The notes beneath the pieces are model-generated. The model made no database searches. It saw nothing but the letters and a program-made list of their open reading frames with translations, and was not told the DNA's origin. The position numbers and the translations under genes were made by a program. Positions 410 through 41,061 of a stretch of 41,351 nt of DNA are shown here, piece by piece. Position 1 is the first letter of the stretch. Every line of letters begins with the position of its first letter. This DNA is from a virus: IMG/VR virus record IMGVR_UViG_3300036846_000502, positions 1 through 41,351 of that record. One strand, 5' to 3'.

Positions 410-439
410 GAGGTACGCGCGACGTACAAGCAAAGTCAA
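410..439 (-). promoter_or_regulatory. Promoter with 17-bp operator (412-428) for the proline-rich gene
   Basis: On the minus strand there is a -35 TTGACT (434-439), an 18-bp spacer and a -10-like TACCTC (410-415). The operator GGTACG-CGCGA-CGTACA (412-428, plus-strand reading) covers the -10 and most of the spacer, so bound repressor would block polymerase. The same geometry recurs at other promoters in this window. Confidence 0.7.
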
Positions 440-456
440 GCCAAATTTTGGAAAGG

Positions 457-921
457 CTAGCGGTCAAGCTGCCGTTTCCAGCGCATCTTCGCCGCCCGTC
501 GTGCAATCTGTGACCGTTTCGCCGGCGGAATTTTTGTCAACCGCGCCAGCGTTGCCGGCCGCGTATGTTTGCGAAACAGCACCGGCGCCGCGCGCGCCAA
601 AAAGTCTTTGCTAACGACGTGAGCATGAACGCGAACTTGTCGATGATTGCGACCTTCCCACCTCGACTTGACGATTTGTTCTTGCTGAAAATCGCGGATC
701 AACACGAGGCGAACGCCAAGCGCAGCGCAGATTATTGGCAGCGAATTTTTGCCGATCGATTTTTCCCGGCTCGGGCCGAGCATCTTGTCGACGTGACCGC
801 GGGTAAAACCGCAGAGCTCCTCAAAACCTTCGTTGGACAGACCACGAAAGTTTTTCACTGCCCAAAACGCATCGGCGAGCTCGGCAAAATCGCGGACGAT
901 CAGCACTGGAAACTGGCTCAT
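457..921 (-). CDS. Small HTH-like phage protein
   Basis: 154 residues starting MSQFPVLIV. I chose the ATG at 919-921 because it overlaps the HNH stop as ATGA; the longer frame upstream is a shadow of the HNH gene. Residues about 20-75 resemble a compact XRE-type helix-turn-helix (FRGLSNEGFEELCGFTRGHV, then an LGV-containing helix). The C-terminus is strongly basic (ARRAAKMRWKR). It is the last gene of the leftward early operon. A DNA-binding regulatory role is inferred; the family is not firmly recognised. Confidence 0.65.
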   Translation of the reverse strand: MSQFPVLIVRDFAELADAFWAVKNFRGLSNEGFEELCGFTRGHVDKMLGPSREKSIGKNSLPIICAALGVRLVLIRDFQQEQIVKSRWEGRNHRQVRVHAHVVSKDFLARAAPVLFRKHTRPATLARLTKIPPAKRSQIARRAAKMRWKRQLDR

Positions 922-1139
922 TGCATCCGTTGTGCATCCGCCGTTATATGACAATCGCAGCAGAGCAGTTCCAAATCGGCAATAAGCTCTCGGCCTAGTC
1001 GCGCATACGTTTTGTGATGCAAGCACAGCCGGCCATAGCAAATGCCGCAGCGTTCGCATTTCGGGCCGCGCAGTCGCATGAAGTCTCTGCGCATGTTGCG
1101 CCAACGCGCGCTGTGCAAATGTTTCAGATAACGGTTCAT
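918..1139 (-). CDS. Small HNH-type zinc protein
   Basis: 73 residues. Visible metal and catalytic pattern: CxxC at 28-31 (CERC), HH at 41-42 (LCLHHKTY), then CCDCH at 60-64. This is the CxxC...HH...CxxC(H) order of small HNH endonuclease-fold proteins. It overlaps both neighbours by four bases (ATGA), which is good evidence that it, and not the overlapping frame of the next gene, is translated. A nicking role in replication or recombination is possible but inferred. Confidence 0.75.
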   Translation of the reverse strand: MNRYLKHLHSARWRNMRRDFMRLRGPKCERCGICYGRLCLHHKTYARLGRELIADLELLCCDCHITADAQRMQ

Positions 1140-1909
1140 CTTGACGCCTCAAGATTGGCGAAGAATGAGTTCACCTCTTGTAAAAGCGTTTCGCTGGGCG
1201 GTTGCTTATTGTAGTTTGTTTCTTCCCACCACCGGCGCCGAAGCTCAAGCGGCAGGCTAAACCATTGTTCGCAGGTCCACCGCTGCCAATCATGGGTAGT
1301 CATGGTCTCAAATCCGACCGCAATCCGACCATCGGGCCGTACTTCCTTGAACCAGTCACGCAGCCGTATGTCATTACCCCACGTAATCTGCGGCGTGTCG
1401 TTCCATAATTCGTCATCCAAAAGCTGATTGGTGGGTTGATTGGTCGGCGCCGCCGGCACGTCAAATTCAAGATCGAACTCACCTTGCTCGGCCTTACTTC
1501 GGATTTTTTTTAGCCGCGCCTTGATCTGACCGATGATGCAATCGGCTTCGTTTTCGTTGGTTGTTACCGCTTCGAATAGCAGAGCGAGCAAAAATAAAAG
1601 GGATGCGTCATAGTACGCGCCAAAGATTAAGACGCCCGTTTGCGTCAGATCAAAACAATCCTGTTTGCGGCCATCCCGACCTTTATATTTGGAGGGGCGG
1701 CAATGTTCGTCGAACGCTTGACCCAAATTTGGGTCGAGCTTTTTACGGTAATTGTTGATGATGCGCATGAGATGGTTGCCATGTCGGTCTTCTCCGACCG
1801 CCCATGCAAAACCTAGCGTACTCATGACGACAAGTTTGCCGCTTTTACCACCCTCGATAACGTGGAAACCAAGCTCTCGATACCGCTCTGCTAATGCTAA
1901 CTGGCTCAT
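1136..1909 (-). CDS. Hypothetical early protein
   Basis: 257 residues starting MSQLALAERYREL. The start at 1907-1909 overlaps the upstream stop as ATGA; a longer upstream extension in this frame is a shadow. The N-terminus looks like a short helical region followed by a globular part with a hydrophobic stretch (SLLFLLALLFEAV) near residue 115. The C-terminus is rich in Trp and acidic residues. I do not recognise a family. Position between a loader-like gene and an HNH gene suggests a DNA-metabolism or regulatory role. Confidence 0.6.
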   Translation of the reverse strand: MSQLALAERYRELGFHVIEGGKSGKLVVMSTLGFAWAVGEDRHGNHLMRIINNYRKKLDPNLGQAFDEHCRPSKYKGRDGRKQDCFDLTQTGVLIFGAYYDASLLFLLALLFEAVTTNENEADCIIGQIKARLKKIRSKAEQGEFDLEFDVPAAPTNQPTNQLLDDELWNDTPQITWGNDIRLRDWFKEVRPDGRIAVGFETMTTHDWQRWTCEQWFSLPLELRRRWWEETNYNKQPPSETLLQEVNSFFANLEASR

Positions 1910-2367
1910 TGGGAAATCATCTTCCCATTGCGATCGAATAGCTCGTGCAACAGCTTTTGTAACCGGCCCCGCATCGTGGCGCAATGCTCATCGCTGTACG
2001 GCGCACGTTCCGGCTGCGGCGGTCCGCGGCGAACGATGGCGAGCGCCGCGGCGGTGTAGAGATCGCACCAGCGTCGCACCTCGCTCGGCGATGGCGGAAA
2101 TCTTTCGGTTGCGGCAATGCCGAAAAACACGTCGCAGCATTGCTCGACGATGCCGAGCGGATAGTGCTCGAAGATTTCCGCCAGACCGTTCAGGTAGGCT
2201 TCGGGATCCGGCGGCCTAGCGTTCGGGTAATGGCCGAGCAGGCGGGTGGCTTGCTGTAGAGCCTGCAGGCGTGAGGTCGAGTAGCGGACCTGTGCAATTG
2301 CCTGTTCGTGCCTTCTCTGCGGCGATGAGACGCGCGCCGGCGTCCACAATGCTAAGTCTTGAGCCAT
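1906..2367 (-). CDS. Putative replicative helicase loader-like protein
   Basis: 153 residues. The start at 2365-2367 is favoured by an upstream AAGGGGAAAGG and because the N-terminus MAQDLALWTPARVS reads as real protein. The core (LLGHYPNARPPDPEAYLNGL, then a motif with PLGIVEQCCD and FPPSPSEVRRWCD) resembles small helicase-loader-type proteins that follow phage replication initiators. The assignment is from pattern and position only. It overlaps the preceding replication gene by 152 bases in another frame and ends ATGA-coupled to the next gene. Confidence 0.55.
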   Translation of the reverse strand: MAQDLALWTPARVSSPQRRHEQAIAQVRYSTSRLQALQQATRLLGHYPNARPPDPEAYLNGLAEIFEHYPLGIVEQCCDVFFGIAATERFPPSPSEVRRWCDLYTAAALAIVRRGPPQPERAPYSDEHCATMRGRLQKLLHELFDRNGKMISQ

Positions 2368-3040
2368 TGCCTTTCCCCTTGTCCTCGTGCGCTTTTCTGC
2401 ACCAGTTGCGCCAGGTCGCGCTCCAATCGCGCTTGACCCCGCCAGGGCCGGCACGCGCTTTCCAATAGTCGACGAATTTGTTGGCCTCGTTGTCGACCTC
2501 GAACAGGCGGAGCCCGAGATCGGCGGCAAACTTCAAATCGGCATCGCTTGGATACCAATCGGGAGCAAGCCGCGAGCCTTTTCTTGCCTTGCTTTCTCGC
2601 GCGCCACTTTCTTTCTCTTTTGCAACTTTCTCTTTCTTTCTTTCTGTATCTGTATCTGTATCTGGTCGTAACCGCGTTACGGTGCCGTTACGGTGTGCGT
2701 TACGGTGTGCGTTACGGCGATAACGGCGCATCCGCTCGGCCGCGGTTGGATCGATCAGGTCGCTTTTGTATTGTCTTTTCTGCCAGTTATGCGGCTCGAT
2801 CGTTCCGTCTTGTTTGCGATCGAGCAACCCGGCAGCCATTAAAGCGGAAATAATCAACTGAGCCTTTAGCAGTGACACACGGAGTTTGAACGCAATGTTT
2901 TCGGGTTCCGGCAGGGTTCCATTATGTCTCGACGCGATGCACATCACGTTGAACCAGTGCTTGAACAACGCTATCGGCAAGCGTTGCAGTTTGGGATCGT
3001 CGATCGCCTCGTCGTAGGCGCGCCACCAATGGCTACTCAT
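2216..3040 (-). CDS. Putative phage replication initiator-like protein
   Basis: 274 residues starting MSSHWWRAYDEAI. The N-terminal half (to about residue 110) reads as a winged-helix domain (LRVSLLKAQLIISALMAAGL, then a KRQYKSDxxDPTAAERMRRYR motif typical of phage replisome organisers). A highly charged linker follows, containing in-frame repeats (RNAHRNAHRN and DTDTDT). The C-terminal part (WYPSDADLKFAADLGL, then FVDYWKARAG and WSATWRNWCRKA) is common in phage replication proteins. The linker DNA carries candidate origin iterons, as in the lambda O gene. It overlaps the upstream GcrA-like gene by 8 bases. Confidence 0.65.
   Translation of the reverse strand: MSSHWWRAYDEAIDDPKLQRLPIALFKHWFNVMCIASRHNGTLPEPENIAFKLRVSLLKAQLIISALMAAGLLDRKQDGTIEPHNWQKRQYKSDLIDPTAAERMRRYRRNAHRNAHRNGTVTRLRPDTDTDTERKKEKVAKEKESGARESKARKGSRLAPDWYPSDADLKFAADLGLRLFEVDNEANKFVDYWKARAGPGGVKRDWSATWRNWCRKAHEDKGKGNGSRLSIVDAGARLIAAEKARTGNCTGPLLDLTPAGSTASHPPARPLPER
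2606..2720. repeat. Candidate replication origin: pyrimidine tract plus four iterons
   Basis: Four head-to-tail copies of GTTACGG(T/C)G begin at 2676, 2687, 2699 and 2711, spaced 11-12 bases. A short inverted element GTAAC-CGC-GTTAC leads into the first. Directly alongside is a plus-strand pyrimidine-rich, AT-rich tract of about 60 bases (2606-2664) that includes three TCTGTA hexamers. Iterons plus an AT-rich tract inside an initiator gene is the lambda ori arrangement; origin function here is inferred. Confidence 0.5.
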
Positions 3041-3422
3041 GCCGCCCCCGATGATGCGCAATGACGGTGTGGTGTCGGCAATAGGACGAGCCGGCAACGG
3101 CGGCGGCGCCGCAATAGTGGTTGTCGACCGGCCAGCGGCAATGATGCGCGGCAAGTTCGGCAAAGCTCACCACCGGGCCGCTCTTCCCCTCCGCCGCTGG
3201 CTCCGGCGGCAGCGCGGTCGAGGATGGCGGTCTTTTCGGCGGTTTGCCCCGCGCCTGCTTTTTGGGCGGCGACGGCGGCCTGGCAAACATCAAGCCGCCG
3301 CGATGCACCTTGCCGATCACGGCATTGCGCGACACGCCGAGCTCATTGCCGATCTGGCTGGCAGAAAGATTTTGCGCGAGAAGTCCTTTGAGGGTTTCAA
3401 ATTTTTCGTCTGTCCAGTTCAT
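3033..3422 (-). CDS. gcrA: GcrA-family cell cycle regulator homologue
   Basis: 129 residues. The N-terminus MNWTDEKFETLKGLL, then LSASQIGNELG and VSRNAVIGKVHR, matches the GcrA helix-turn-helix (about residues 1-45). A basic proline-rich linker follows. The C-terminus keeps the CRWPV...YCG...YCRHH pattern (about residues 92-118) typical of GcrA. In Caulobacter and relatives GcrA binds sigma70 RNA polymerase and activates promoters with methylated GANTC sites. A phage copy could recruit host polymerase to phage promoters or perturb the host cycle; that is inference. It is the first gene of the leftward early operon, next to the operator at 3484-3500. No strong Shine-Dalgarno is visible. Confidence 0.85.
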   Translation of the reverse strand: MNWTDEKFETLKGLLAQNLSASQIGNELGVSRNAVIGKVHRGGLMFARPPSPPKKQARGKPPKRPPSSTALPPEPAAEGKSGPVVSFAELAAHHCRWPVDNHYCGAAAVAGSSYCRHHTVIAHHRGRHE

Positions 3423-3483
3423 TTTGGCGCCGGCGTTTTCTAAACCATTGGATAGGGGGCCCTATCGGTTGGCTAAAAAATCT

Positions 3484-3500
3484 TGTACGTTTGTCGTACA
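3484..3500. promoter_or_regulatory. 17-bp operator between divergent early genes
   Basis: TGTACG-TTTGT-CGTACA, a perfect inverted repeat with a 5-base centre. It lies between the GcrA-like gene (minus, starts 3422) and the 95-residue gene (plus, starts 3529), so it could control either or both. I could not fit clear -35/-10 boxes around it. Confidence 0.7.
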
Positions 3501-3528
3501 GGGGCGGGCCTGTAGCGTGGAGGACGTA

Positions 3529-3816
3529 ATGCACCTGATCGAGACGGTTCCGATTTCCGATACCTATTGCTCGGGAATGGCGAAAATCGAAAAACTGCCT
3601 TGCGGAAATCTGCGGCTGTGGGCCTACACCAACCAGGCCGCCGATTGCGGTGCCGGCCCCGTCGAAACTGTTCTCGTCGCCAAGCTGGTATTCCCGGCGG
3701 CAGCGATCGTGCCGCTGGTGCTGATGGCCATGAGTGTGATCGGTGCGGATCTGGATGCGGCCGGCGTGGCGGCGCTCAATGAAGCAATGGATTTGCGCAG
3801 TTTTGCCCACCATTGA
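3529..3816 (+). CDS. Hypothetical small protein
   Basis: 95 residues starting MHLIETVPISDTYC. The start at 3529 is set by GGAGG five bases upstream; the longer frame leading into it is antisense to the GcrA-like gene. Middle: GMAKIEKLPCGNLRLWAYTN; then a hydrophobic stretch (residues about 50-68, VFPAAAIVPLVLMAMSVIG). Family not recognised. It stands alone on the plus strand, faces the repressor gene ending at 3820, and has an operator just upstream, so it may be a lysogeny-regulated accessory gene. Confidence 0.6.
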   Translation: MHLIETVPISDTYCSGMAKIEKLPCGNLRLWAYTNQAADCGAGPVETVLVAKLVFPAAAIVPLVLMAMSVIGADLDAAGVAALNEAMDLRSFAHH

Positions 3817-3819
3817 CGG

Positions 3820-4017
3820 TTACTCTGCGGCTTCGATCAGCCAACTTTCGAGCGGCACCTTGCCTTTCGACCAGCGCGCAATCCGCTGCATGACGTCGAC
3901 TGACGGCCTGACCGCGCCATTGCGGTAGCGGTTCACGGTCGCGCGCTCGACGCCGATCGCGACGGCAACCTCATCATCCTTGAGCCCCTCACGGGCCATG
4001 TATTCTTTCAAGTGCAT
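3820..4017 (-). CDS. Cro/CI-like helix-turn-helix repressor
   Basis: 65 residues, the size of lambda Cro. A helix-turn-helix spans about residues 12-34 (DDEVAVAIGVERATVNRYRN), followed by a short C-terminal dimer-like helix (PLESWLIEAAE). There is no LexA/S24-type self-cleavage domain. The predicted promoter places the transcript start within a few bases of the ATG, so the mRNA may be leaderless. It is divergent from the second repressor at 4172, with three operators between. Whether this is the lysogenic repressor or the Cro-like antagonist cannot be decided from sequence. Confidence 0.8.
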   Translation of the reverse strand: MHLKEYMAREGLKDDEVAVAIGVERATVNRYRNGAVRPSVDVMQRIARWSKGKVPLESWLIEAAE

Positions 4018-4024
4018 AATCCGT

Positions 4025-4054
4025 TAGGTACGCTACACGTACCAGTTTCGTCAA
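4025..4054 (-). promoter_or_regulatory. Repressor-gene promoter with operator 4027-4043
   Basis: Minus strand: -35 TTGACG (4049-4054), 18-bp spacer, -10-like TACCTA (4025-4030). Operator GGTACG-CTACA-CGTACC (4027-4043) covers the -10 and spacer. The -10 ends only 7 bases before the ATG at 4017, which implies a leaderless or near-leaderless transcript. Confidence 0.7.
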
Positions 4055-4064
4055 CCGGCAGCAT

Positions 4065-4081
4065 CGTACGCGTCACGTACC
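4065..4081. promoter_or_regulatory. Middle operator of the immunity region
   Basis: CGTACG-CGTCA-CGTACC, with the same 6-5-6 layout as the other operators. It sits between the two divergent repressor promoters, 21 bases from the 4027-4043 site and 65 from the 4147-4163 site. That would suit cooperative binding or autoregulation. Confidence 0.7.
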
Positions 4082-4136
4082 AAAGCCAACTTATCCCAAG
4101 GTTCAAAAATGCGTCAAAAGACGTAAGTGTTTGGTC

Positions 4137-4165
4137 TTGCTTTAACTGTACGGCGGCCGTACATA
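4137..4165 (+). promoter_or_regulatory. Promoter with operator 4147-4163 for the second HTH gene
   Basis: -35 TTGCTT (4137-4142), 17-bp spacer, -10-like TACATA (4160-4165). Operator TGTACG-GCGGC-CGTACA (4147-4163) overlaps spacer and -10. The ATG at 4172 falls where transcription should start, again suggesting a leaderless message; no Shine-Dalgarno is present. Confidence 0.65.
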
Positions 4166-4171
4166 TGATTT

Positions 4172-4429
4172 ATGAGGAAAATTCACAGACGACCCCGGAG
4201 CAAGCCGCGCTACAGCGTGCATTTCTTAAAGCAATGGCGCGAGCGGCAGCGTATGGACCGCAAAGACCTGGCCGCGGCCACCGGCCTGGCGCCACAGACG
4301 ATCGGCCGGATCGAGAACCGGCTGATCCAACTGACCCAGGAGACGATCGACGCCTTTGCCCGGGCGCTGAAAATCCCCCGTGGCGCCATTTTCGACCGGC
4401 CACCCCCCCCCCCGCAAACTGACGCCTAA
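4172..4429 (+). CDS. XRE-family helix-turn-helix regulator
   Basis: 85 residues. A basic N-terminal arm (MRKIHRRPRSKPRY) precedes a canonical XRE domain at about residues 18-70: LKQWRERQRMDRKDLAAATG, then LAPQTIGRIENR and ETIDAFARALKI. The C-terminus is a poly-proline tail (RPPPPPQ). No protease or dimerisation domain follows. It is divergent from the 65-residue repressor and first on the plus strand, so by lambda logic it could be the Cro counterpart or the main repressor. Confidence 0.8.
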   Translation: MRKIHRRPRSKPRYSVHFLKQWRERQRMDRKDLAAATGLAPQTIGRIENRLIQLTQETIDAFARALKIPRGAIFDRPPPPPQTDA

Positions 4430-4447
4430 AAATTAGGTAAAATTGGT

Positions 4448-4464
4448 AGAACGTAGCGCGTACC
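4448..4464. promoter_or_regulatory. Imperfect operator upstream of the recombination operon
   Basis: AGAACG-TAGCG-CGTACC: the right arm is consensus and the left arm keeps only part of it. It lies 19 bases upstream of the perfect operator 4483-4499, so it may be a weaker, cooperatively filled site. Confidence 0.4.
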
Positions 4465-4471
4465 TGTTCGC

Positions 4472-4501
4472 TTGACCGAACGGGTACGCCTAACGTACAT
4501 T
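4472..4501 (+). promoter_or_regulatory. Promoter of the recombination operon with operator 4483-4499
   Basis: -35 TTGACC (4472-4477), 18-bp spacer, -10-like TACATT (4496-4501). Operator GGTACG-CCTAA-CGTACA (4483-4499) sits between and over the boxes. This is the clearest promoter/operator unit in the window. Confidence 0.75.
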
Positions 4502-4570
4502 GCCGCGCATTCGGCCAGGCAAGGCCAGGGAATGGCCTTGGCCGGCGCCAGGCATCGGCAAGGGTTTCAC

Positions 4571-4762
4571 ATGAAACAACGGCGTTGGATTTCCTGGGCG
4601 CAATGGCTCGCCATCCACAAGCATCCCGACTTCCGCGCCGATGAGTGGGCCGTCGATCTGCAGGACGAACGGCCCAAGAATAATCCGCGCCTGGGCGAGT
4701 TCGAGGAATACGAGGGCGAGGCCGAGAGCCGCGGGCTCGACCCGCGAGGATTTAAGAAATGA
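4571..4762 (+). CDS. Hypothetical small acidic protein
   Basis: 63 residues starting MKQRRWISWAQWLAIHKHPD. I chose the ATG at 4571 with AAGG upstream; the longer frame would start at a TTG inside the promoter. The C-terminus is acidic (EFEEYEGEAESRG). No family recognised. It is first in the rightward recombination operon and its stop overlaps the ERF start as ATGA, so the two are translationally coupled. Confidence 0.6.
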   Translation: MKQRRWISWAQWLAIHKHPDFRADEWAVDLQDERPKNNPRLGEFEEYEGEAESRGLDPRGFKK

Positions 4763-5988
4763 TCGCCCAAAAAGAACAAACCAAAGTCAGAACCCAACAA
4801 CCGATTGCCGAAACGGCACCGGCGCCGGATCTACCGGCGGTCATCAGCCCGCCCTCCCCGCCGCCCACATTCATACCCGCACCGCCGGCGGCAACTGTCC
4901 GCGACTATCCGGGTCGGCTCGCCAAGGCCATCCTGAACGTCGCCAAGGAAATCGGCTCGATCCAAAAGCAAGGCTTCAATGAGTTCCAAAGGTATCGCTA
5001 TACCCGGTGGGAGGACATCAACGAGAAACTCTCGCCGCTGCTGGCCGACTACGGTCTGATCATCACCCAGCGCGAGGTCGCCAAGACGCTGTATGAGCCG
5101 AACGACAAAGGCTCGACGCTGGCGGTGACCTACGCGTTCTCGGTGATCAACGAGCACGGCGACCAATGGCCGGAGATCGAGCTCACCGGCATGGCGCGGT
5201 TTCGCGATCAGAAAGGCATCGTCGACGACAAGGCATCGAGCAAATGCCTGACGATGGCGGAAAAAAATTTCTGCGTAAAACTGTTCAAGATCCGCACCGA
5301 CGACAGCATCGATCCCGACGACGAACGCCGGCCGCAGCGCGCCGCCGATGAACGCGTGACCTATCAAAAATATCTTGACGAGATCAAAGCCATCCACTCG
5401 CTGGCCGAGCTCGATCAATGGAAAAAAGATAATTTGGAACGGGTGCGCGCGAGCTTGCGCGATCATTGGCTCGGCTATTTCAATGTCGCGTTCACTGAGA
5501 AGCGCGCCGATCTTGCTAATGCCTACGCCACCATGCCGGATTTTGACGCCGAAACCGGCGAGGTGGTCGAGGATGCGGCACCGCAGCGGGCCTCGTCAGT
5601 CAGTGCGGCGCCGAAGGCCGCCCCACCGCGTAGCAACCCCGCGGCCGGGGCGGCCGAGAAAAACGAGCTCACCACCGACGAAGCCGACGCCAAGCTGACC
5701 GCGGCGGCAACGCAGGGCATGGAAGCCTTGCAAGCCGCCTGGACCGCACTGAGCCAAGACCACAAGACCGCATTGCGCTCGGCGTTGGAGCGTCGCCACA
5801 AGATGAACGCCATGAAAGCCGACGCGGCCGGCCGTGAATTTCACCGACACACAGAAGCTCAAGGCGGTGCAACGCGAAATCAAATGGCGCTGCAAGGTGT
5901 TTCCAAACCGCGTGCAGACCGGCCGCATGACGCCGCACGAGGCCGACTACCAGATCAAGATCATGGAAGCGATCGCCGCCGATTATGA
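4759..5988 (+). CDS. erf: ERF-family single-strand annealing recombinase
   Basis: 409 residues. A proline-rich N-terminal tail (to about residue 45) precedes the ERF domain, about residues 50-190: LAKAILNVAKEIGSIQKQGF, then FQRYRYTRWEDINEKLSPLL, GLIITQ, and DDKASSKCLTMAEKNFCVKL. ERF proteins anneal complementary single-stranded DNA in phage recombination, the role of RecT or Beta. The region after about residue 250 is low-complexity and helical. The last 50 or so residues overlap the next gene (5834-5988) in another frame and read poorly, so they are probably an unselected tail. Exonuclease partner: none seen nearby. Confidence 0.85.
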   Translation: MIAQKEQTKVRTQQPIAETAPAPDLPAVISPPSPPPTFIPAPPAATVRDYPGRLAKAILNVAKEIGSIQKQGFNEFQRYRYTRWEDINEKLSPLLADYGLIITQREVAKTLYEPNDKGSTLAVTYAFSVINEHGDQWPEIELTGMARFRDQKGIVDDKASSKCLTMAEKNFCVKLFKIRTDDSIDPDDERRPQRAADERVTYQKYLDEIKAIHSLAELDQWKKDNLERVRASLRDHWLGYFNVAFTEKRADLANAYATMPDFDAETGEVVEDAAPQRASSVSAAPKAAPPRSNPAAGAAEKNELTTDEADAKLTAAATQGMEALQAAWTALSQDHKTALRSALERRHKMNAMKADAAGREFHRHTEAQGGATRNQMALQGVSKPRADRPHDAARGRLPDQDHGSDRRRL

Positions 5989-6019
5989 GCGCGTGGCCGT
6001 CAAGGAACGCTTGCTATGA
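5834..6019 (+). CDS. Small conserved phage protein
   Basis: 61 residues from a GTG start: VNFTDTQKLKAVQREIKWRC, then GRMTPHEADYQIKIMEAIAADYE. The REI...GRM...AD..I..M.AI..DYE pattern is familiar from small proteins in rhizobial and other phage recombination or replication operons; the function is unknown to me. It overlaps the ERF gene by 155 bases in the +1 frame. Its conserved pattern makes it more believable than the ERF tail it overlaps. Confidence 0.6.
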   Translation: MNFTDTQKLKAVQREIKWRCKVFPNRVQTGRMTPHEADYQIKIMEAIAADYERVAVKERLL

Positions 6020-6035
6020 CAATGGGGTACGCCCC

Positions 6036-6064
6036 TTGTACGGGGGGCGTACTCAGGCTATATT
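6036..6064 (+). promoter_or_regulatory. xis-int promoter with operator 6037-6053
   Basis: -35 TTGTAC (6036-6041), 17-bp spacer, -10 TATATT (6059-6064). Operator TGTACG-GGGGG-CGTACT (6037-6053) overlaps the -35 and spacer. An extra GGTACG half-site starts at 6026. Transcription would begin just before the Shine-Dalgarno of the excisionase gene. Confidence 0.7.
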
Positions 6065-6078
6065 AAGGACGTGGGGAA

Positions 6079-6441
6079 ATGCCTGACATATTCACGATCG
6101 ACGAAGCCGCGAAGCAGTTACGGGTTAGCCGCCGTTGGCTGCAAAGCTGGCTTCGCAATCACCCGGTCGACGACGGCGGCCGGCCGTTCTTTTCTCCACT
6201 CGGCCGCCGCAAGACCTTTGACTACACGGATCTTGACCGGATCCGCGAAACCGCGAGGAGAGAACTATGCCGCTCAAACTTCGGAAACATAAGTCGCCGT
6301 ATTGGTCGATTCGCGGCACCTATCTCGGGCACTACGTGGATCGAAGCACTGGCACTGGCGAAAAAGCACTCGCCACGAAACACCTCAAAGAGCTCAAAGC
6401 GGAGATCGAACGTGGTGCCTTTAAGAAAAAGGACGCCGTAG
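6079..6441 (+). CDS. xis: Excisionase-like DNA-binding protein
   Basis: 120 residues. The first 65 form a MerR/HTH_17-type winged helix: MPDIFTIDEAAKQLRVSRRW, then LQSWLRNHP, FFSPLGRRKTFDYTDLDRIR. Such proteins bind att-site DNA and steer a tyrosine integrase toward excision. GTGGGG lies just before the ATG. The remaining 55 residues are read out of frame over the start of the integrase gene (175-base overlap) and look like unselected, basic sequence. Own promoter and operator directly upstream. Confidence 0.75.
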   Translation: MPDIFTIDEAAKQLRVSRRWLQSWLRNHPVDDGGRPFFSPLGRRKTFDYTDLDRIRETARRELCRSNFGNISRRIGRFAAPISGTTWIEALALAKKHSPRNTSKSSKRRSNVVPLRKRTP

Positions 6442-7259
6442 GATTTGGCGCCGCCGCCGCGGCCTACATCAACGCCGGCGGCGAGAACCGCTACCTGGCG
6501 CCGCTGATCGAGCACTTCAAAGACACCCCGCTGGCCGAGATCGATCAAGTGGCGATCGACAACGCCGCGGCTGCGCTCTATCCCGACGCCACCATGCAAA
6601 CCCGCTGCCGCGAGGTTTACACGCCGATCAGTGCGGTGATGCACCGCGCCGGCGATCTGCGCCCGATCAAGCGGCCAAAGGGCTCGAAGAGCTCGAAGCG
6701 GGTTTCCTGGCTGCGGCGCGAGCAAGCGTTCGCACTGTTCGCCGCCGCCGACGCCGAGGATACCGAGTTCGGTTTGCTCTTACGGCTGTTTGCCTACACC
6801 GGCATGCGCAAGAGTGAGGTGTTGCGGCGGATCAAGGTCGAGAACGTCGATCTGAAAAACGCCTCGATCTACGTGCCCAAGACCAAGAACACCGAGCCGC
6901 GCCAAGTCCACTTGACGCCCGAGCTCGTCGCCGGGCTGGCCAATCTATTCGCCGCCCATCCCGAGCGCGGCCCGACCGATCCGGTGTTTCGGTTCCGCAT
7001 CAACGGCTATCTGCAAGACAAGCTGGCGCGGGCGATGAAGCGGGCCGGCCTGTCGTTTCCGGTCGGGCAAAACGGTTTCCATCTGTTCCGCCACACCTGG
7101 GCGATGTGGATGCGGCGCTATGCCGGGCTGGATACCAGCGGCCTGGTCGAGACCGGCGCCTGGCGCGATCGGGCGAGCGCCGCGCGCTATGAACACCTCG
7201 ACGCCACCGAGGAAGCAAAGAAGGCTGATCTGTTGCCGACGATGAAGGTGGTGCGATGA
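6267..7259 (+). CDS. int: Tyrosine-family phage integrase
   Basis: 330 residues. N-terminal arm/core-binding region to about residue 145, catalytic domain after it. Catalytic residues are all visible: R181 in TGMRKSE, Lys 205/207 in PKTKN, H272-x-x-R275 in FHLFRHTW, W299 in GAWRD, and nucleophile Y308 in RYEHL. The start is set by GAGGAG upstream of the ATG. It catalyses recombination between phage attP and bacterial attB. Length is normal for the family. Transcribed with xis; downstream lie structured DNA and repeats that may hold attP. Confidence 0.92.
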   Translation: MPLKLRKHKSPYWSIRGTYLGHYVDRSTGTGEKALATKHLKELKAEIERGAFKKKDAVGFGAAAAAYINAGGENRYLAPLIEHFKDTPLAEIDQVAIDNAAAALYPDATMQTRCREVYTPISAVMHRAGDLRPIKRPKGSKSSKRVSWLRREQAFALFAAADAEDTEFGLLLRLFAYTGMRKSEVLRRIKVENVDLKNASIYVPKTKNTEPRQVHLTPELVAGLANLFAAHPERGPTDPVFRFRINGYLQDKLARAMKRAGLSFPVGQNGFHLFRHTWAMWMRRYAGLDTSGLVETGAWRDRASAARYEHLDATEEAKKADLLPTMKVVR

Positions 7260-7263
7260 CGAC

Positions 7264-7377: not shown

Positions 7378-7390
7378 GGAGGAGAAGCAA

Positions 7391-7534
7391 ATGATCAAGC
7401 GCCGCGAGCCCCTGCTACAGCCCCGCAAAAAACCGCAATGGCGCAAAGTGAAAATAATCCCGCGGGCCCCGCGAAAATCCGGGGAAAATCCGGGGAGTAG
7501 CTCTTTGATAAAAATCAAAAACGGAAATTGTTGA
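7391..7534 (+). CDS. Very small basic protein
   Basis: 47 residues starting MIKRREPLLQPRKKPQWRK, with 13 Lys/Arg in the first 30 residues. A strong GGAGGAG lies 5-6 bases before the ATG, which is the main support. It spans one copy of the candidate att repeat (7475-7499), which encodes KSGENPGS. Possibly a small DNA-binding protein; equally the Shine-Dalgarno may be chance in a repeat-rich region. Confidence 0.35.
   Translation: MIKRREPLLQPRKKPQWRKVKIIPRAPRKSGENPGSSSLIKIKNGNC
7475..7499. repeat. Candidate att core repeat, copy 1
   Basis: AAATCCGGGG twice in tandem, followed by AGTA. It matches 7691-7715 in 24 of 25 positions. Position downstream of int is where attP usually lies. The last ten bases of the window (41342-41351) are the same 10-mer inverted. 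Confidence 0.4.
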
Positions 7535-7543
7535 ATGAAAGGA

Positions 7544-7569
7544 GGGGGATAGCCGCGAGGCCATCCCCC
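7544..7569. other. GNRA-capped stem-loop
   Basis: GGGGGATAGCC (7544-7554) and GGCCATCCCCC (7559-7569) form a stem with one A-C mismatch and a GCGA tetraloop. It lies between the two candidate att repeats, with no T-run after it. The rest of 7535-7690 shows no gene I can support. Confidence 0.35.
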
Positions 7570-7690: not shown

Positions 7691-7715
7691 AAATCCGGGG
7701 GAAATCCGGGGAGTA
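7691..7715. repeat. Candidate att core repeat, copy 2
   Basis: The 25-base direct repeat of 7475-7499, 216 bases downstream and in the same orientation. The DNA between includes a stem-loop and a short CACACGCCGG/CACACACCGG repeat (near 7645). Confidence 0.4.
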
Positions 7716-7756: not shown

Positions 7757-7788
7757 GGTACGCCCCCCGTATGCGGCGTACCTTTTTT
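7757..7788 (+). terminator. Rho-independent terminator of the int operon
   Basis: GGTACGCC (7757-7764), a 10-base loop, GGCGTACC (7775-7782), then six T. The arms contain operator-like GGTACG/CGTACC halves, but the spacing (14 bases) differs from the 5-base operator centre. Confidence 0.7.
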
Positions 7789-33998: not shown

Positions 33999-34014
33999 AG
34001 CTTAGAGCTCCCCT

Positions 34015-34830: not shown

Positions 34831-35056
34831 TCGGCTCCGCCATCACCTCGGCCATGACGGCCATCAGTTCGGCGGCCAATTTCCTTCGTCCTAAATTCTC
34901 TCGCAACGCACCGGAAATGTCGGCGCCGGCCGCGGCGGTTGGAAATCCCAACAACACTTTTTGCAACAGCACATAAAACAGTTCGCCATCGCCCGGTTTG
35001 GCGGCGTCGCGGGCGAAGCGTTGCAAAGCTTCGTGGCACAGTTTTTCGTCAATCAT
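34673..35056 (-). CDS. Small head-region protein
   Basis: 127 residues from MIDEKLCHEALQRFARDAAK; start at 35054-35056, ATGA-coupled to the portal stop; the longer frame is a shadow. Core GDGELFYVLLQKVLLGFP and GRRKLAAELMAVMAEVMAE is familiar from small proteins between portal and scaffold genes in podoviruses. The last 50 residues overlap the scaffold start and are Arg/Pro-rich, unselected-looking sequence. Function unknown. Confidence 0.65.
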   Translation of the reverse strand: MIDEKLCHEALQRFARDAAKPGDGELFYVLLQKVLLGFPTAAAGADISGALRENLGRRKLAAELMAVMAEVMAEPIGDRGNDEQRAKLARGERPVIFQFPRPNQRRRQPGARRRGIGEPPTTEPDAG

Positions 35057-36645: not shown

Positions 36646-36648
36646 GCT

Positions 36649-36858
36649 CTAGCCCTTGCCAAACAGCGCGTTGGCGATCGGCGTAGTGCCGGTCGAGCCC
36701 ATGTTCATCGCCAGCTTGCCGTAGGCCGCCATCAGCGAACCCATGTCGCCGCGGGCCTGGGTCTGCAGGCCGGCAACAAGCTGATTTTGCGCCTGCTTCT
36801 CCGCTTGCTGAGTCAGCGGATCAAGCGGCTGCGGCGGCGGTGGCGACGGTGCATCCAT
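36649..36858 (-). CDS. Hypothetical small protein upstream of portal
   Basis: 69 residues from MDAPSPPPPQPLDPLTQQAE; start at 36856-36858. Proline-rich start, then helical AEKQAQNQLVAGLQTQARGD and GSLMAAYGKLAMNMGSTGTT. It overlaps the upstream gene by 38 bases and ends three bases before the portal start. The AYGKLAMN...NALFGKG ending recalls small proteins beside podovirus portals; function unknown. Confidence 0.6.
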   Translation of the reverse strand: MDAPSPPPPQPLDPLTQQAEKQAQNQLVAGLQTQARGDMGSLMAAYGKLAMNMGSTGTTPIANALFGKG

Positions 36859-37258
36859 CGGCGAGGAGCAGTCCTCCTTGCCGCAAGCAATGCGCAAAAA
36901 GCGTATCGGGCCGCAACGCACCGCCGGAAACGCCGAGCAAATGCGCGACCGCCGGCGCACACCAGCCAAAGATCGGCGGCGTGCCGGTGCGCGCGCGTGT
37001 CGGCACCTCGATCACCGCGGCGGCATAAAGAAACTCGTGGATCAGTTGGCTGGCGGCCTCGCCGCGGGCGACGCGGATCGTGGTGCGGCTTAATGCCGGA
37101 TCAAAGAACACCCAAGTGTTGATCGGTCCCACAAAGCCGAAGGCGCGCACGTGCTTATAGGTTCCGGGCAACCACGCCGCCCATTTGGATGCCGCCTTGC
37201 GGGTAAAGCACACCGCCCATTGGGTCGGCTCGCCGGCGCCGGGGTCGAACGTGATCAT
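36821..37258 (-). CDS. Conserved hypothetical protein after terminase
   Basis: 145 residues from MITFDPGAGEPTQWAVCFTR; start at 37256-37258, ATGA-coupled to terminase. Conserved-looking features: YKHVRAFGFV (His), WVFFDPALS (Asp), FGWCAPAVAHLLGVSGGALR (Cys) and FAHCLRQGG. A Cys, a His and an Asp in a small alpha/beta protein hint at an NlpC/papain-like fold, but this is speculation. Similar genes sit next to terminase in rhizobial podoviruses (from memory). Confidence 0.6.
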   Translation of the reverse strand: MITFDPGAGEPTQWAVCFTRKAASKWAAWLPGTYKHVRAFGFVGPINTWVFFDPALSRTTIRVARGEAASQLIHEFLYAAAVIEVPTRARTGTPPIFGWCAPAVAHLLGVSGGALRPDTLFAHCLRQGGLLLADGCTVATAAAAA

Positions 37259-38802
37259 CCGGCAATCCGCCGGCCGACGCCGCGCTGGCCTTTCCACACT
37301 TTGACCGGCATCGCCGTGACGTTGCCCATCGTTACCGCTTTGCCTTCGCCGCCGCCGAGCAGCATGTTCTCGCCGGCCTCGCAAATGTGGCTGTATTGGT
37401 TTTTCTCCGGGGTGTCGGCGTAGCGTTCGCCGGAAACCCGGATCCGCCGCATGAAATATCCCCCCGCCATGCCGGTGATGTAGGTGACGCAGCGCGGATC
37501 GACGAGGAGTGAGCTCGCCCGCCCAGTCAGCGAGCGCCGCAGCATCACCGCATTGACCGCCTCGTGCCGCACCGACAATTGGTTTTGCGGGTTTGGCGCC
37601 GGGCGCACGATCAGCCCATGCTCGCGGAAAATATCGAACGGCGTCTTGTCGGTGGCCTGGCCTTTCTGGGCGCCGGCCGGATCGCCCCACAACACGAAAT
37701 TGCCGCCGGGATAGTACGCCTGCAAAAACGATTTCAGCGCCGGCGCAAACTCGACCGCCGAGACATCGCGGCCGATAAATTCTCTTTGGATAAACCAATC
37801 GCCGCGCAGGCATTGGCCGATCAACGCCGCCGGCTGGCGGCCGAAATCGAGCCCGACGATCACCGGGGTATGCTCGATCGGCGACAGCGGCCGATCGGCG
37901 ACATGCACGTCCTTGCGAAATTGCGGATAAACCGGCTGGCCGTCGACGTCGATCGCCGAGCGGTTCATCAGATTGGCGTCGATCCAGGCCTTGGTCTGAC
38001 CGCCGATTTTCTCCATGTAGAAATTGGCCGGCAGATGCTTGAGGTTCTCGGCGGCCGGGTTTTGCCGGTAGCCCATGATGCGGCCCTTGTCGTCGATGTC
38101 CTCCAATAGCCCCGGCGGCTGCACGTAGAACGTCCAGCTTGGCGGCTTGATCAGCGCCCGGCGCTGGTCCTCGGTCATCCAATCCGGCGCCGCGAGATCG
38201 CCTCTCATGATCGGGATCCAGTGATCGGCCGGCGGTGCGTTGGTGTCGAGGATCAGCCCGCCCCAGGCACAGCCGCCGTCCTTGACCGCCGGATAACGCG
38301 GCGGGGAGACGCGGCCGACCGCCTCGCGCACCACCTCGAATTGCGCGAACTGGCCCTCGTTGAACCAGATCAGCGAGGTTTCCAACGACATAAAATAACT
38401 CTTGGCGTCGGCAATATCCTCCATCGCCATGAACGTCACGTCGAGCTCGAGCGGGCCGACCCGGACCTCGTGCAGATACGGCCTGGTCTCGTAGAAGCGG
38501 CCGAATTGATTGGCCGCGGTGCCGGGCGGAAACCAATCTTTCCAAGTCTTGATCGCGGTTTCCTCCAGCTTGGAATAGGTCTCGCGAAACACGTGGGCCC
38601 GAAACCGCTGCCGGCCGTCACTTTGTTTCGGCTGCGCTAAAGCCTGTTGATAAATGTGAACGCAACAGGCGGATGATGTTCCGCTTCCCTGTGGTCCCTG
38701 AATTATTTTGACGCGAGATTTTTCGTCTCGCATGAAGGCTCTAAGTACGGGGCCATCTGGTCGAAAAATCGGATAGCCCGTTTGGGGATCTTTCTCGATC
38801 AT
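37255..38802 (-). CDS. Terminase large subunit
   Basis: 515 residues. The P-loop is KIIQGPQGSGTSS (residues 33-44), with Thr where the usual Walker A lysine stands. A Walker B-like SLIWFNE follows. The RNase H-type nuclease has VIVGLDFGRQ and VLWGDPAGAQ as its first acidic residues. The enzyme packages DNA through the portal and cuts concatemers. The start overlaps the HNH remnant stop as ATGA. Small-subunit terminase was not identified by sequence; it may be one of the short genes upstream. Confidence 0.85.
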   Translation of the reverse strand: MIEKDPQTGYPIFRPDGPVLRAFMRDEKSRVKIIQGPQGSGTSSACCVHIYQQALAQPKQSDGRQRFRAHVFRETYSKLEETAIKTWKDWFPPGTAANQFGRFYETRPYLHEVRVGPLELDVTFMAMEDIADAKSYFMSLETSLIWFNEGQFAQFEVVREAVGRVSPPRYPAVKDGGCAWGGLILDTNAPPADHWIPIMRGDLAAPDWMTEDQRRALIKPPSWTFYVQPPGLLEDIDDKGRIMGYRQNPAAENLKHLPANFYMEKIGGQTKAWIDANLMNRSAIDVDGQPVYPQFRKDVHVADRPLSPIEHTPVIVGLDFGRQPAALIGQCLRGDWFIQREFIGRDVSAVEFAPALKSFLQAYYPGGNFVLWGDPAGAQKGQATDKTPFDIFREHGLIVRPAPNPQNQLSVRHEAVNAVMLRRSLTGRASSLLVDPRCVTYITGMAGGYFMRRIRVSGERYADTPEKNQYSHICEAGENMLLGGGEGKAVTMGNVTAMPVKVWKGQRGVGRRIAG

Positions 38803-38920
38803 AAGAGAGCACCGATCTTGCGAGCAAAATCGAGAGGATCGCGGTCGCCCTTCGAATGATTACATCGCGGGCATAGCCATTGCGCGCGAGATTATCTGCG
38901 GGTTGCGCTCGATCAATCAT
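38799..38920 (-). pseudogene. Broken HNH endonuclease remnant
   Basis: From the ATG at 38918-38920 (ATGA overlap with the previous stop) the frame reads MIDRAQPADNLARNG; the next frame reads AQWLCPRCNHSKGD then RDPLDFARKIGALL and ends ATGA-coupled to terminase. Together they give the second half of a canonical HNH domain (DNLxQWLCPRCNxxKxxxDP). Deleting two bases from the CGCGCG run near 38890 would join them as DNLAQWLCPRC. The first half of the HNH domain is absent. Either a decayed gene or a dinucleotide error plus truncation. Confidence 0.6.
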
Positions 38921-39141
38921 TTCATCCGCGCGTGAGGTTCTTTCATGCGGACCGGACCCCAACTGTCATTGCGCCGATCGGATGTTTTTTGGGCGCGATA
39001 TTCCGGCTTGGTTTTGCTGGCCCGCTTCTCCGACAGCATGATCGCAATGGCCTGCTTCTGGCTCTTGACCTTCGGACCGCCTGGGCCGCCGGAGCGCAGC
39101 GTGCCGGCCTTCCATTTGTGCATAACCTCGGTGTAGGGCAT
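38917..39141 (-). CDS. DUF6496-like small protein
   Basis: 74 residues: MPYTEVMHKWKAGTLRSGGP, then PKVKSQKQAIAIMLSEKR, the conserved pattern of small phage DUF6496 proteins (VMHxFKxGxLxSG...KQAIAIxLSE). After about residue 52 it carries the tail DRRNDSWGPVRMKEPHARMK, which is also present on the next upstream gene. Function unknown. The stop overlaps the HNH remnant start. Confidence 0.7.
   Translation of the reverse strand: MPYTEVMHKWKAGTLRSGGPGGPKVKSQKQAIAIMLSEKRASKTKPEYRAQKTSDRRNDSWGPVRMKEPHARMK
38920..38980. repeat. 61-bp direct repeat, copy 1 (shared gene tail)
   Basis: Imperfect direct repeat of 39149-39209; each copy encodes the last 20 or so residues of its gene (DRRNDSWGP, then EPHARMK). 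The ends match best. It suggests duplication or recombination at a gene end. Confidence 0.7.
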
Positions 39142-39145
39142 TTTT

Positions 39146-39406
39146 TTATTTCATCCGGGCGTGCGGTTCCTGCATCATGATCGGCCCCCAACTGTCGTTG
39201 CGCCGATCGTCGGACTTGCCGATGCCGGGATATTTGCGTTTGACCGCGGCGCGGACCTTGGCCTTTTCCGCCGGCGTGCCGTGCTGCGACACTCGCGCCA
39301 GCGCGTTCCGCGCGTGCGAGGCATCCTCGATCGGATAGCGCCGGCCCGGCAGCGCAAAGTTCGAACCAGAAATCTTGTTGCGCGCCGCCGCGGTGAGCTT
39401 TGCCAT
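39146..39406 (-). CDS. DUF6582-like small protein
   Basis: 86 residues from MAKLTAAARNKISGSNFALP, then GRRYPIEDASHARNALARVS and QHGTPAEKAKVRAAVKRKYP: the pattern of phage DUF6582-type proteins (FAxPGxRxYPIxDxxHARNALARVxQ). The tail DRRNDSWGPIMMQEPHARMK is shared with the downstream gene. Start at 39404-39406, overlapping the upstream stop as TGATG. Function unknown. Confidence 0.7.
   Translation of the reverse strand: MAKLTAAARNKISGSNFALPGRRYPIEDASHARNALARVSQHGTPAEKAKVRAAVKRKYPGIGKSDDRRNDSWGPIMMQEPHARMK
39149..39209. repeat. 61-bp direct repeat, copy 2
   Basis: Partner of 38920-38980, 229 bases away in the same orientation and same gene-end position. Confidence 0.7.
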
Positions 39407-39600
39407 CACCCTTGCTCGCGCTCGCCGCTTTCCTCGCGGGTGTCGAGCGCGCGCTCGGCCTTAACGAGCCGCTCGCCCTCGGCCTTCTCGCCGCGTTTTG
39501 TCACCAACAGCACCGGGATCTTGCCGGCGGCCGGATCGACGCCGTAGCATTTGCGCCGCCCGGTCATGTGATACTGCGCCCGCGGGCTCATCTCTGCCAT
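39406..39600 (-). CDS. Hypothetical small protein
   Basis: 64 residues from MAEMSPRAQYHMTGRRKCYG (ATG at 39598-39600). GKIPVLLVTKRGEKAEGERL follows, then a charged C-terminus (ALDTREESGEREQG). Not recognised. Part of the run of short genes leading into terminase. Confidence 0.55.
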   Translation of the reverse strand: MAEMSPRAQYHMTGRRKCYGVDPAAGKIPVLLVTKRGEKAEGERLVKAERALDTREESGEREQG

Positions 39601-39604
39601 GACA

Positions 39605-39805
39605 TCACCCGTTGTTGGCGGCGGACCCGGTATAGACCCAGGTGGCGACGACAACACCCTTATCGCCGATCACGTTGCCCGAAGTCGCAACTTTCAGCGA
39701 GCGGACCTGTTGCGCGGCCAGCACGCAGGCGCGATCGATCAATTGCACTTCGGCACGCTTGGTGTCGTTCGTCAGATCATTAACGGTGAGCACAAAAAGC
39801 GACAT
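39605..39805 (-). CDS. Hypothetical small protein
   Basis: 66 residues starting MSLFVLTVNDLTNDTKRAEV, then QLIDRACVLAAQQVRSLKVA and a beta-like end (GVVVATWVYTGSA). Not recognised. Immediately adjacent to the next gene. Confidence 0.55.
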   Translation of the reverse strand: MSLFVLTVNDLTNDTKRAEVQLIDRACVLAAQQVRSLKVATSGNVIGDKGVVVATWVYTGSAANNG

Positions 39806-40060
39806 TTACCGGCTCCTACGCTTGCCGGCGGATTTTGCCGGCGCCGGTTTTTTCCGCAACACACCGCTTTTTTGCTTTTTTGTTTGCTTGGCCGCCGCCG
39901 CATATTGCCCACACCATAGATCGGCGCGCACCACCGGAAACTGACCGCCTTGCTGTTGGAGCGCCGCCGGCGGATTAAAACAACACACCAGGGCGCCGGC
40001 GTTGGCGAGATCGGCCGGCATGGTGCGGGCATAGCTGCACGTGCCGCAATTGGCCGCCAT
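39806..40060 (-). CDS. Small cysteine-containing phage protein
   Basis: 84 residues: CGTCSYART near the start, then GALVCCFNPPAA, QFPVVRADLWCGQY, and a Lys/Pro-rich tail (KKPAPAKSAGKRRSR). The spaced Cys pattern (CxxC...CC...C) suggests a small metal-binding or disulphide-linked fold seen in phage early/late boundary genes. ACAGGAGAGACG precedes the ATG. Confidence 0.6.
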   Translation of the reverse strand: MAANCGTCSYARTMPADLANAGALVCCFNPPAALQQQGGQFPVVRADLWCGQYAAAAKQTKKQKSGVLRKKPAPAKSAGKRRSR

Positions 40061-40075
40061 CGTCTCTCCTGTAGT

Positions 40076-40134
40076 GCCCCGCTCCCGCCATCACCCCTTC
40101 CCAAGGGTTACGCATTACCAAACGAGAGCGGGGC
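40076..40134. other. Long-range inverted repeat in an intergenic gap
   Basis: GCCCCGCTC (40076-40084) and GAGCGGGGC (40126-40134) pair perfectly across a 41-base loop, within a 105-base non-coding gap. It could fold in the mRNA leader of the 84-residue gene and hold back its ribosome site, or be a transcription-pausing element. Confidence 0.4.
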
Positions 40135-40165
40135 CTTCCCGGCCGTCGTGTCGCGGCGCGGGAAA

Positions 40166-40234
40166 CTAATCCCACCAAACCACAACCAGCCCGAGCGCCG
40201 CAAAGACGGCGCCGAACACCATCAGGTCAAGCAT
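40166..40234 (-). CDS. Membrane microprotein
   Basis: 22 residues: MLDLMVFGAVFAALGLVVVWWD, one hydrophobic helix with two Trp at the end. It overlaps the upstream gene by 8 bases and is the only frame that fits the gap. Size and single helix are consistent with a tiny membrane protein, for example a holin-related or lysis-control peptide; this is inference, and the reading frame could be chance. Confidence 0.35.
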   Translation of the reverse strand: MLDLMVFGAVFAALGLVVVWWD

Positions 40235-40523
40235 CCTTGTGCTCGTCCTTGGATCGCCGCAACGCCTTCGGCAAAAATTCGGCAATCTCCATCTCCACCG
40301 TGCCCGGCGACACCTCGCCACCATTGGCCTGCATGGTGTTGACCAACGCATTGCGATAGCCGGCCATGAACTCATGGGCCTTCTGCACCTCGAACGTGAC
40401 CATCGACAGCACGTCCTGAAACGCCGTTAAATGCCGCATCGACTGATTGAGGTGATACACCGCCTTGTCGAACTTCGACTCAAATTGCTGTTTCTGTCCA
40501 TTGCCGTTGTCATCATCAGCCAT
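40227..40523 (-). CDS. Hypothetical helical protein
   Basis: 98 residues from MADDDNGNGQKQQFESKFDK (ATG at 40521-40523) with GAGGAGGG upstream. Long helical body (AVYHLNQSMRHLTAFQDVLS, MVTFEVQKAHEFMAGYRNAL) and an acidic, lysine-rich end. Not recognised. A small terminase subunit is conceivable from position only. Confidence 0.5.
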   Translation of the reverse strand: MADDDNGNGQKQQFESKFDKAVYHLNQSMRHLTAFQDVLSMVTFEVQKAHEFMAGYRNALVNTMQANGGEVSPGTVEMEIAEFLPKALRRSKDEHKDA

Positions 40524-40564
40524 CACGAAACCCTCCTCTCGCGGTTAGCTTTCGGAAAAAATCG

Positions 40565-40804
40565 TCAGCCGTGCAGAAAATCCTCCAGCGCCTTGACCAC
40601 GGCCTCGGCCTGCTCCGCCGTCATCCCGGCATTGCGCAGCGCGCTAGCGAGCGCCGTGCGCTGCGGACTGGCCGGAACCGGCGGCGCCTGATGTTGGGGT
40701 TCCTCGTCGGTGGTCTCGTCAACGGGATCCATATGTTCCTTAGGCATGCGCTTGGCTCCTCTGGGTTTGGGTTTCGGTTTCGGTTTGTGTGCTGGCCGCT
40801 TCAT
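40565..40804 (-). CDS. Hypothetical protein with KP-repeat N-terminus
   Basis: 79 residues from MKRPAHKPKPKPKPRGAKRM. An alternative ATG at 40747 (MPKEHMDPVDET, 60 residues) has a better Shine-Dalgarno (AGAGGAG), so the true start is unsure. The C-terminus is a UBA-like helical motif (ASALRNAGMTAEQAEAVVKA). Not recognised. Second gene of the late operon. Confidence 0.5.
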   Translation of the reverse strand: MKRPAHKPKPKPKPRGAKRMPKEHMDPVDETTDEEPQHQAPPVPASPQRTALASALRNAGMTAEQAEAVVKALEDFLHG

Positions 40805-40819
40805 GCTCGGTGGCCGCCA

Positions 40820-40996
40820 TCAATGAAACGCCGCGCCCAGCGCGTGACTGCCGCCCAGCAAAATCGACAAGATCCAGAACGCCACCGCCAGCCAGCCAAA
40901 ATGAATGGCAATCGGCGGCCGGTTCACCTCGGTGATGAACAGCGCCGCAATCGCCGCAAACACAAACGCAAAAACCAGCAAAATCGTACCGAGCAT
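40820..40996 (-). CDS. Two-helix membrane protein, first late gene
   Basis: 58 residues from MLGTILLVFAFVFAAIAALF; the ATG at 40994-40996 is set by GGGAGG upstream, and the longer frame would start inside the operator. Hydrophobic segments at about residues 3-21 and 31-50, joined by a short turn (TEVNRPPIAI). This fits a small class II-like holin or another inner-membrane protein; it lies far from the endolysin. First gene downstream of the predicted late promoter. Confidence 0.6.
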   Translation of the reverse strand: MLGTILLVFAFVFAAIAALFITEVNRPPIAIHFGWLAVAFWILSILLGGSHALGAAFH

Positions 40997-41007
40997 CACA
41001 ACCTCCC

Positions 41008-41024
41008 TGTACGTCACGCGTTCG
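41008..41024. promoter_or_regulatory. Imperfect operator at the late promoter
   Basis: TGTACG-TCACG-CGTTCG, one mismatch in the right core arm. It adjoins the perfect site at 41023-41039 by two bases, so tandem binding is likely. Confidence 0.5.
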
Positions 41025-41061
41025 TACGTGCCACGTACCACTAACGCGCGGCCTCAGTCAA
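41023..41061 (-). promoter_or_regulatory. Late promoter with perfect operator 41023-41039
   Basis: Minus strand: -35 TTGACT (41056-41061), 18-bp spacer, -10-like TACGTG (41032-41037). Operator CGTACG-TGCCA-CGTACC (41023-41039) overlaps the -10. It leads into the 33-kb late operon. No other promoter of this quality was seen for the late genes, so the repressor may control them directly. Confidence 0.65.

Follow-up and report, generated by a model that had tools for sequence, protein, structure and literature searches.

The window analyzed here (record IMGVR_UViG_3300036846_000502, the whole stretch of 41,351 bases) carries one palindrome, GTACG-N5-CGTAC, at eight dispersed positions, raising the question of which protein would recognize it and whether a single regulator could govern genes as far apart as the immunity region and the virion operon. 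The reading favored here, to which a probability of roughly 0.74 is assigned, is that the palindrome is the operator of the phage's own immunity switch, formed by the small helix-turn-helix (HTH) proteins P65 and P85, and that the repressor present in a lysogen would silence early and late transcription units directly.

The window represents a temperate phage of an alphaproteobacterial host, and ~93% of it is coding. Family searches placed a leftward early operon, a pair of HTH_3 regulators, an ERF recombinase, an excisionase-like gene, and a tyrosine integrase in the left 8 kb. The leftward early/replication operon is headed by a GcrA-family gene (3033–3422, minus strand; PF07750, E=1.7e-26) and contains a replication initiator-like gene. 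A gene at 1136–1912 has a weak Rha/Ant-like match (E about 1e-3), making it a possible candidate antirepressor, and a leftward accessory gene (1–381), cut by the window end, encodes Pro/Gly-rich repeats of GGPPPGIWPSPGHPAHPIAP. The regulator genes for P65 (65 amino acids; 3820–4017, minus strand; PF01381, 4e-8) and P85 (85 amino acids; 4172–4429, plus strand; PF01381, 2.6e-11) are followed on the plus strand by an early operon with the ORF at 4571 and the ERF recombinase, and by xis (at 6079) and int (6267–7259), both assigned by family matches. All genes between 7938 and 40996 lie on the minus strand and form a late operon of ~33 kb with a single promoter, encoding a small membrane protein, TerL, a head-tail adaptor, the major head protein, tail proteins, and an amidase endolysin. 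The right and left ends of the window are neighbors in relatives, since contig L082 continues across both. A search of the first 25 kb for near DNA matches to named phages returned none, direct protein scans of IMG/VR with the integrase, replication protein, and ERF recombinase as queries yielded no relatives, and the window TerL shares 34% identity with its counterpart in Burkholderia phage BcepC6B.

Two further features of this genome were noted. The window has about ten-fold fewer GANTC (CcrM methylation) sites than expected (14 versus 155, a ratio of 0.09); the corresponding ratios are 0.06 in L082, 0.10 in L060, 0.25–0.39 in most related phage loci, and about 0.27 in the flanks of a Bradyrhizobium prophage. 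The GANTC-depleted phage itself encodes the GcrA homologue, which may connect phage transcription to the CcrM/GcrA circuit of the host; control of the late genes by this homologue through GANTC was considered and dropped, there being no GANTC in the late promoter region. Just downstream of int, two near-identical 25-bp direct repeats (AAATCCGGGGAAAATCCGGGGAGTA; 7475–7499 and 7691–7715, 216 bp apart) look like the integrase arm sites of an attP, and the window ends in bases (TTTCCCCGGATTT) that resemble a single unit of this repeat.

All eight exact sites of the original prediction were recovered (15-bp cores starting at 413, 3485, 4028, 4066, 4148, 4484, 6038, and 41024), as were its two near matches (4449 and 41009). 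The operator, originally described as 17 bp long, has a conserved core of 15 bp, because the flanking bases show little conservation; the coordinates of the 17-bp version run one base further at either end. By the gene calls used here, all eight exact sites are intergenic in a window where wholly noncoding 15-mers account for 6.1% of positions. Their rarity by chance was confirmed, with the expected count revised from 0.04 to 0.013 under a first-order Markov model (Poisson P about 2e-20, or about 2e-16 when corrected for all arm sequences and gaps). Each of 60 simulated Markov sequences held at most one site, and the reversed control pattern had no match in the window. GTACG-N5 is the most frequent gapped palindrome with 5-bp arms in the window, followed by GC-rich coding words, and no other spacing of the GTACG and CGTAC arms recurs there. 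Chance, or a nonregulatory repeat such as an iteron or packaging site, can for practical purposes be dismissed as the source of the pattern: no point in its favor was found, and it is contradicted by these statistics, by the intergenic placement, by the conserved promoter register described below, and by the complete lack of single sites in 21 other phage records (638 kb). These records are the matches to the first late gene of the window besides L082's own, and in them that gene has no preceding site.

Scored with a matrix built from the eight exact sites, those sites reach 20.8–24.8 bits and noise stays below 5 bits. Weaker matches start at 41009 (13.9 bits), 7758 (10.6), 1996 (10.4), 6027 (8.2), and 4449 (7.8), and those at 7758, 1996, and 6027 extend the set first listed. 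An accumulation of matches inside genes, for which the original prediction was to be checked, was not observed: all eight exact sites lie outside genes, and the sole scored site within one is the weak match at 1996, which was rejected as an operator and taken as a chance match.

The placement of the sites relative to promoter elements is informative with regard to mechanism. S1 (413–427, minus strand; exact) forms the promoter-operator of the accessory gene, S3 (4028–4042, minus strand) lies within the P65 promoter, and S6 (4484–4498, plus strand; exact) is located in the promoter of the early operon containing the ERF recombinase gene. In all three, exactly 7 bp separate the end of TTGAC from the operator, whose final TAC opens the −10 element, giving an 18-bp spacer. 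S5 (4148–4162, plus strand) falls within the promoter of P85, with 9 bp between it and the ATG of that gene, and S4 (4066–4080; exact) lies upstream of the P65 promoter. The near match at 4449–4463 (plus strand) is 35 bp upstream of S6, the two forming a tandem pair. S2 (3485–3499; exact) separates the leftward GcrA/replication operon from a rightward ORF at 3529 and has no clear −35 in the early register. S7 (6038–6052, plus strand) overlaps the −35 of the xis-int promoter (TTGTAC-17-TATATT) and has one GTAC arm in common with a weak operator at 6027–6041, offset by 11 bp. S8 (41024–41038, minus strand) covers the −10 and +1 of the late promoter (TTGACT, 18-bp spacer, TACGTG); a weak second site (41009–41023, minus strand) lies between S8 and the first late gene, at a spacing not kept in relatives. 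No promoter could be tied to the weak site at 7758–7772, which has one mismatch and falls in the presumed attP region. The initial claim that most sites overlap predicted promoters held in part: a simple sigma-70 consensus scan called promoters overlapping only some of the sites, and none at the late site.

When TTGAC-plus-operator promoters from the window and its relatives were pooled (29 distinct), the distance from TTGAC to the site was 7 bp in 19, 5–6 bp in five, 2–3 bp in two (accessory genes of L081 and L082), and 17–18 bp in the remaining three of 29, which are the late promoters. Such variation in placement across the core promoter fits a repressor acting by polymerase blockage, rather than an activator or sigma element with one fixed geometry. 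It is accordingly very unlikely that the palindrome is the site of a phage activator or a phage-specific promoter element switching genes on together; overlap with −10 elements, occurrence at every transcription unit, and the weak late −10 would be compatible with such a role, but the position relative to the −35 ranges from 2–3 through 5–7 to 17–18 bp, and at xis the site lies over the −35 itself, and most sites have a good TTGAC −35.

P65 and P85 are encoded by divergent Cro/CI-type (XRE/Cro-type) HTH genes (3820–4429) that are conserved as a pair in relatives and share palindromic operators, with S3, S4, and S5 between them and the 4449/4484 pair beyond P85. The gene order mirrors that of lambda (P85, operator pair, ERF, xis, and int codirectional; P65 divergent), suggesting that P85 occupies the CI position. 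P85 would thus be CI-like by position, and P65 appears Cro-like by its Cro-like size and its C-terminal motif, which we take to resemble that of YdaS/Cro-like proteins. The structure model of P65 is a five-helix HTH (pLDDT 85) with P22 c2 among its fold matches and that of P85 is likewise an HTH, both being generic Cro/CI folds that do not distinguish the binder. P85 (85 amino acids) has only an HTH match and no LexA-type peptidase domain; as a peptidase domain is missing from both proteins, RecA-stimulated cleavage is an unlikely route to induction. Toward its 3′ end (4403–4416), the P85 gene has a stretch of about 11 C that could vary in length, altering the short P85 C-terminal tail.

As in lambda, both proteins may be binders of the operator. 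Phages whose P85 recognition helix differs but whose P65 helix is common have the same operator, and L057 and L058, which combine an L038-like P85 helix with another P65, have a changed operator, GTnACGC..GCGTnAC, with one extra base per half. This covariation leans toward P65 as the determinant of the GTAC arms. The arms track P65 better than P85 both across these helix groups and in L057/L058, as would be expected if only the Cro-like P65 bound the sites, during lytic growth, for timed shut-off of early genes, with P85 keeping lysogeny through other sites. Such a division of labor is nevertheless unlikely: S5 sits in the P85 promoter, the window contains no second palindrome family of comparable strength, and blocking of the late operon by a Cro protein in the lytic phase makes little sense. 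The reading in which the sites serve the repressor of the lysogen is preferred, with P65 and P85 probably both binding them as dimers.

The sites, their intergenic placement, the promoter registers, their conservation, and the linkage to the regulator pair are direct observations, and the last two extend beyond the window. IMG/VR was scanned at the DNA level alone, with no protein query, for pairs of operators no more than 30 bp apart, and 48 stretches were found; L022, L038, and L041 encode homologues of both P65 and P85, and L053 a homologue of P65. A P65 alignment search retrieved 22 loci and one prophage of Bradyrhizobium japonicum in8p8 (L095), in most of which TTGAC and then a GTAC-N7-GTAC site directly precede the P65 gene. 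The register of TTGAC, 7 bp, and a site whose last TAC starts the −10 recurs in more than 12 metagenomic phages that encode homologous pairs and in one such Bradyrhizobium prophage, and a tandem operator pair 33–35 bp apart beyond P85 is common to many relatives. The predicted conservation of the sites was thereby borne out, with promoter registers kept. When the immunity genes differ, the operator differs as well, being of a CTAAA type in L092 and AGGAC-N5-GTCCT in the Bradyrhizobium prophage G530. In addition, many phage contigs among loci L009–L056 carry tandem GTACG-N5-CGTAC sites in stretches with no detectable P65 or P85 homologue, from which it appears that other regulators have reached a similar operator; L012, L021, and L026 are among those in which the operators are arranged as 11-bp overlapping arrays.

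These comparisons also bear on the idea that the sites belong to a host regulator exploited by the phage. Alphaproteobacterial LexA boxes have the form GTTC-N7-GTTC, a spacing equal to that of GTAC-N7-GTAC, and some weak sites read GTAC-N7-GTTC. Ownership by the host is nonetheless highly improbable, as the sites accompany phage-encoded regulators and, among 399 genomes of the bacterial family, tandem GTACG operators occur once, as a simple repeat. A LexA box was discarded as an identity for the sites: the window has a single GTTC-N7-GTTC and a single copy of its complement, neither of them at any of the sites.

Beyond the immunity region, the operator set of the window extends to the replication operon, xis-int, the accessory gene, and the late operon promoter. 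The late-promoter site is kept in both close relatives that reach the late promoter, L082 (at 4789) and L083 (at 927); in these sites, found via TerL relatives, inner bases are changed and the distance from TTGAC is 17 or 18 bp. The late promoter is reached by these two relatives only, and their closeness means that conservation of the late site is partly by descent. More distant late-gene relatives (L092 and G530) have their own operators only near the regulators and none at the late promoter, and the P65-type records retrieved have at most three sites each, in the immunity region. Because most phages with this immunity type, like the late-gene relatives, keep their sites in the immunity region, the reach to late and accessory genes is lineage-specific. 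In two relatives, inserted accessory genes also come with an operator. L081 has a 1.2-kb insert (3239–4400) between terL and the next gene that starts with TTGAC-CCG-site, and its ORFs, of 202 amino acids (behind the insert's own operator-promoter) and 167 amino acids, have no Pfam match. Likewise, L082 carries a secreted ORF behind a TTGAC-operator promoter. These features raise the tentative possibility, held at somewhat less than even odds, that in this lineage the immunity operator spread to the late operon and to inserted accessory genes as TTGAC-operator cassettes, such that the repressor would replace or override a dedicated late switch and cargo would be silenced on arrival.

The late promoter has a good −35 and a poor −10 (TACGTG), identical in the window, L082, and L083, suggesting that an activator may still be needed after derepression. 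No Q-type family was found among the early proteins scanned, in a scan that was not exhaustive, and the operator covers the late promoter. The contrast with Q-dependent late control in lambda, as originally proposed, is plausible and likely, although the poor −10 may require an activator.

In lambda, P22, and 434, divergent Cro/CI-type HTH genes similarly have several operators between them, and in lambda-type phages an operator pair beyond the gene in the CI position likewise controls recombination and xis-int genes. The window differs in that P85 lacks a C-terminal peptidase/oligomerization domain, P65 does not head a lytic operon but has a convergent gene after it, and operators are also present at the replication, xis-int, accessory, and late promoters. 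The lambda repressor reaches late genes only indirectly, through Q. In P1, C1 recognizes an asymmetric operator and reaches late genes only indirectly, by way of lpa; P1 resembles what is proposed for the window in having one repressor for many promoters and differs in operator symmetry and in late control via Lpa. P1 C1 operators occur at many phage promoters, and the late genes are activated by Lpa (PMC8198154). In SPbeta, a single master repressor, MrpR, acts through a 15-bp element (SPBRE) at about ten dispersed intergenic prophage promoters; the element is alike in length and dispersal, whereas MrpR has a tyrosine-recombinase fold and the regulators here are of the HTH_3 family, and a search of that paper found no mention of late genes (PMC10516654). 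Mycobacteriophage L5 has many immunity-repressor sites (operators/stoperators) genome-wide that are asymmetric, oriented with transcription, and mostly off promoters (PMC6550527), in contrast to the symmetric, promoter-bound sites of the window. The Bradyrhizobium prophage L095 is alike in its P65/P85 pair, GTAC-N7-GTAC sites, register, and tandem pair (34 bp apart), and differs in that its sites were found only in the immunity region. With one site type present at several separate phage promoters, the window belongs by its anatomy with the dispersed-operator regulons already known from P1, SPbeta, and L5, and the covering of the late promoter is a variant. We know of no well-described phage, from a literature search of open-access papers, in which the immunity repressor acts directly on the promoter of a whole virion operon.

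Taken together, one operator type is present at the immunity, ERF, xis-int, GcrA/replication, accessory, and late promoters, as the single-repressor regulon of the original prediction requires, and from this arrangement we infer its remaining elements: binding, repression, and the identity of the protein that maintains lysogeny. At early promoters, the site fills the spacer behind the TTGAC −35, its last TAC starting the −10, and because the operator lies within spacer and −10, a bound dimer would exclude RNA polymerase. The site covers the −35 at xis-int, and the −10 and start at the late promoter. In a lysogen, one repressor would in this way silence immunity, recombination, replication, and excision genes, the accessory gene, and the 33-kb virion/lysis operon. 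A single small repressor could probably switch off the early and late programs directly, much as happens in a few other phages at dispersed early promoters.

With a repressor on the late promoter and accessory genes that carry their own operator, and with relatives of other immunity types that retain homologous late genes and lack the operator, the evolution of regulon reach becomes testable. The proposed network predicts that lysis and virion genes would be kept tightly off in lysogens, and that swaps of the immunity region would need the dispersed sites to be changed as well.
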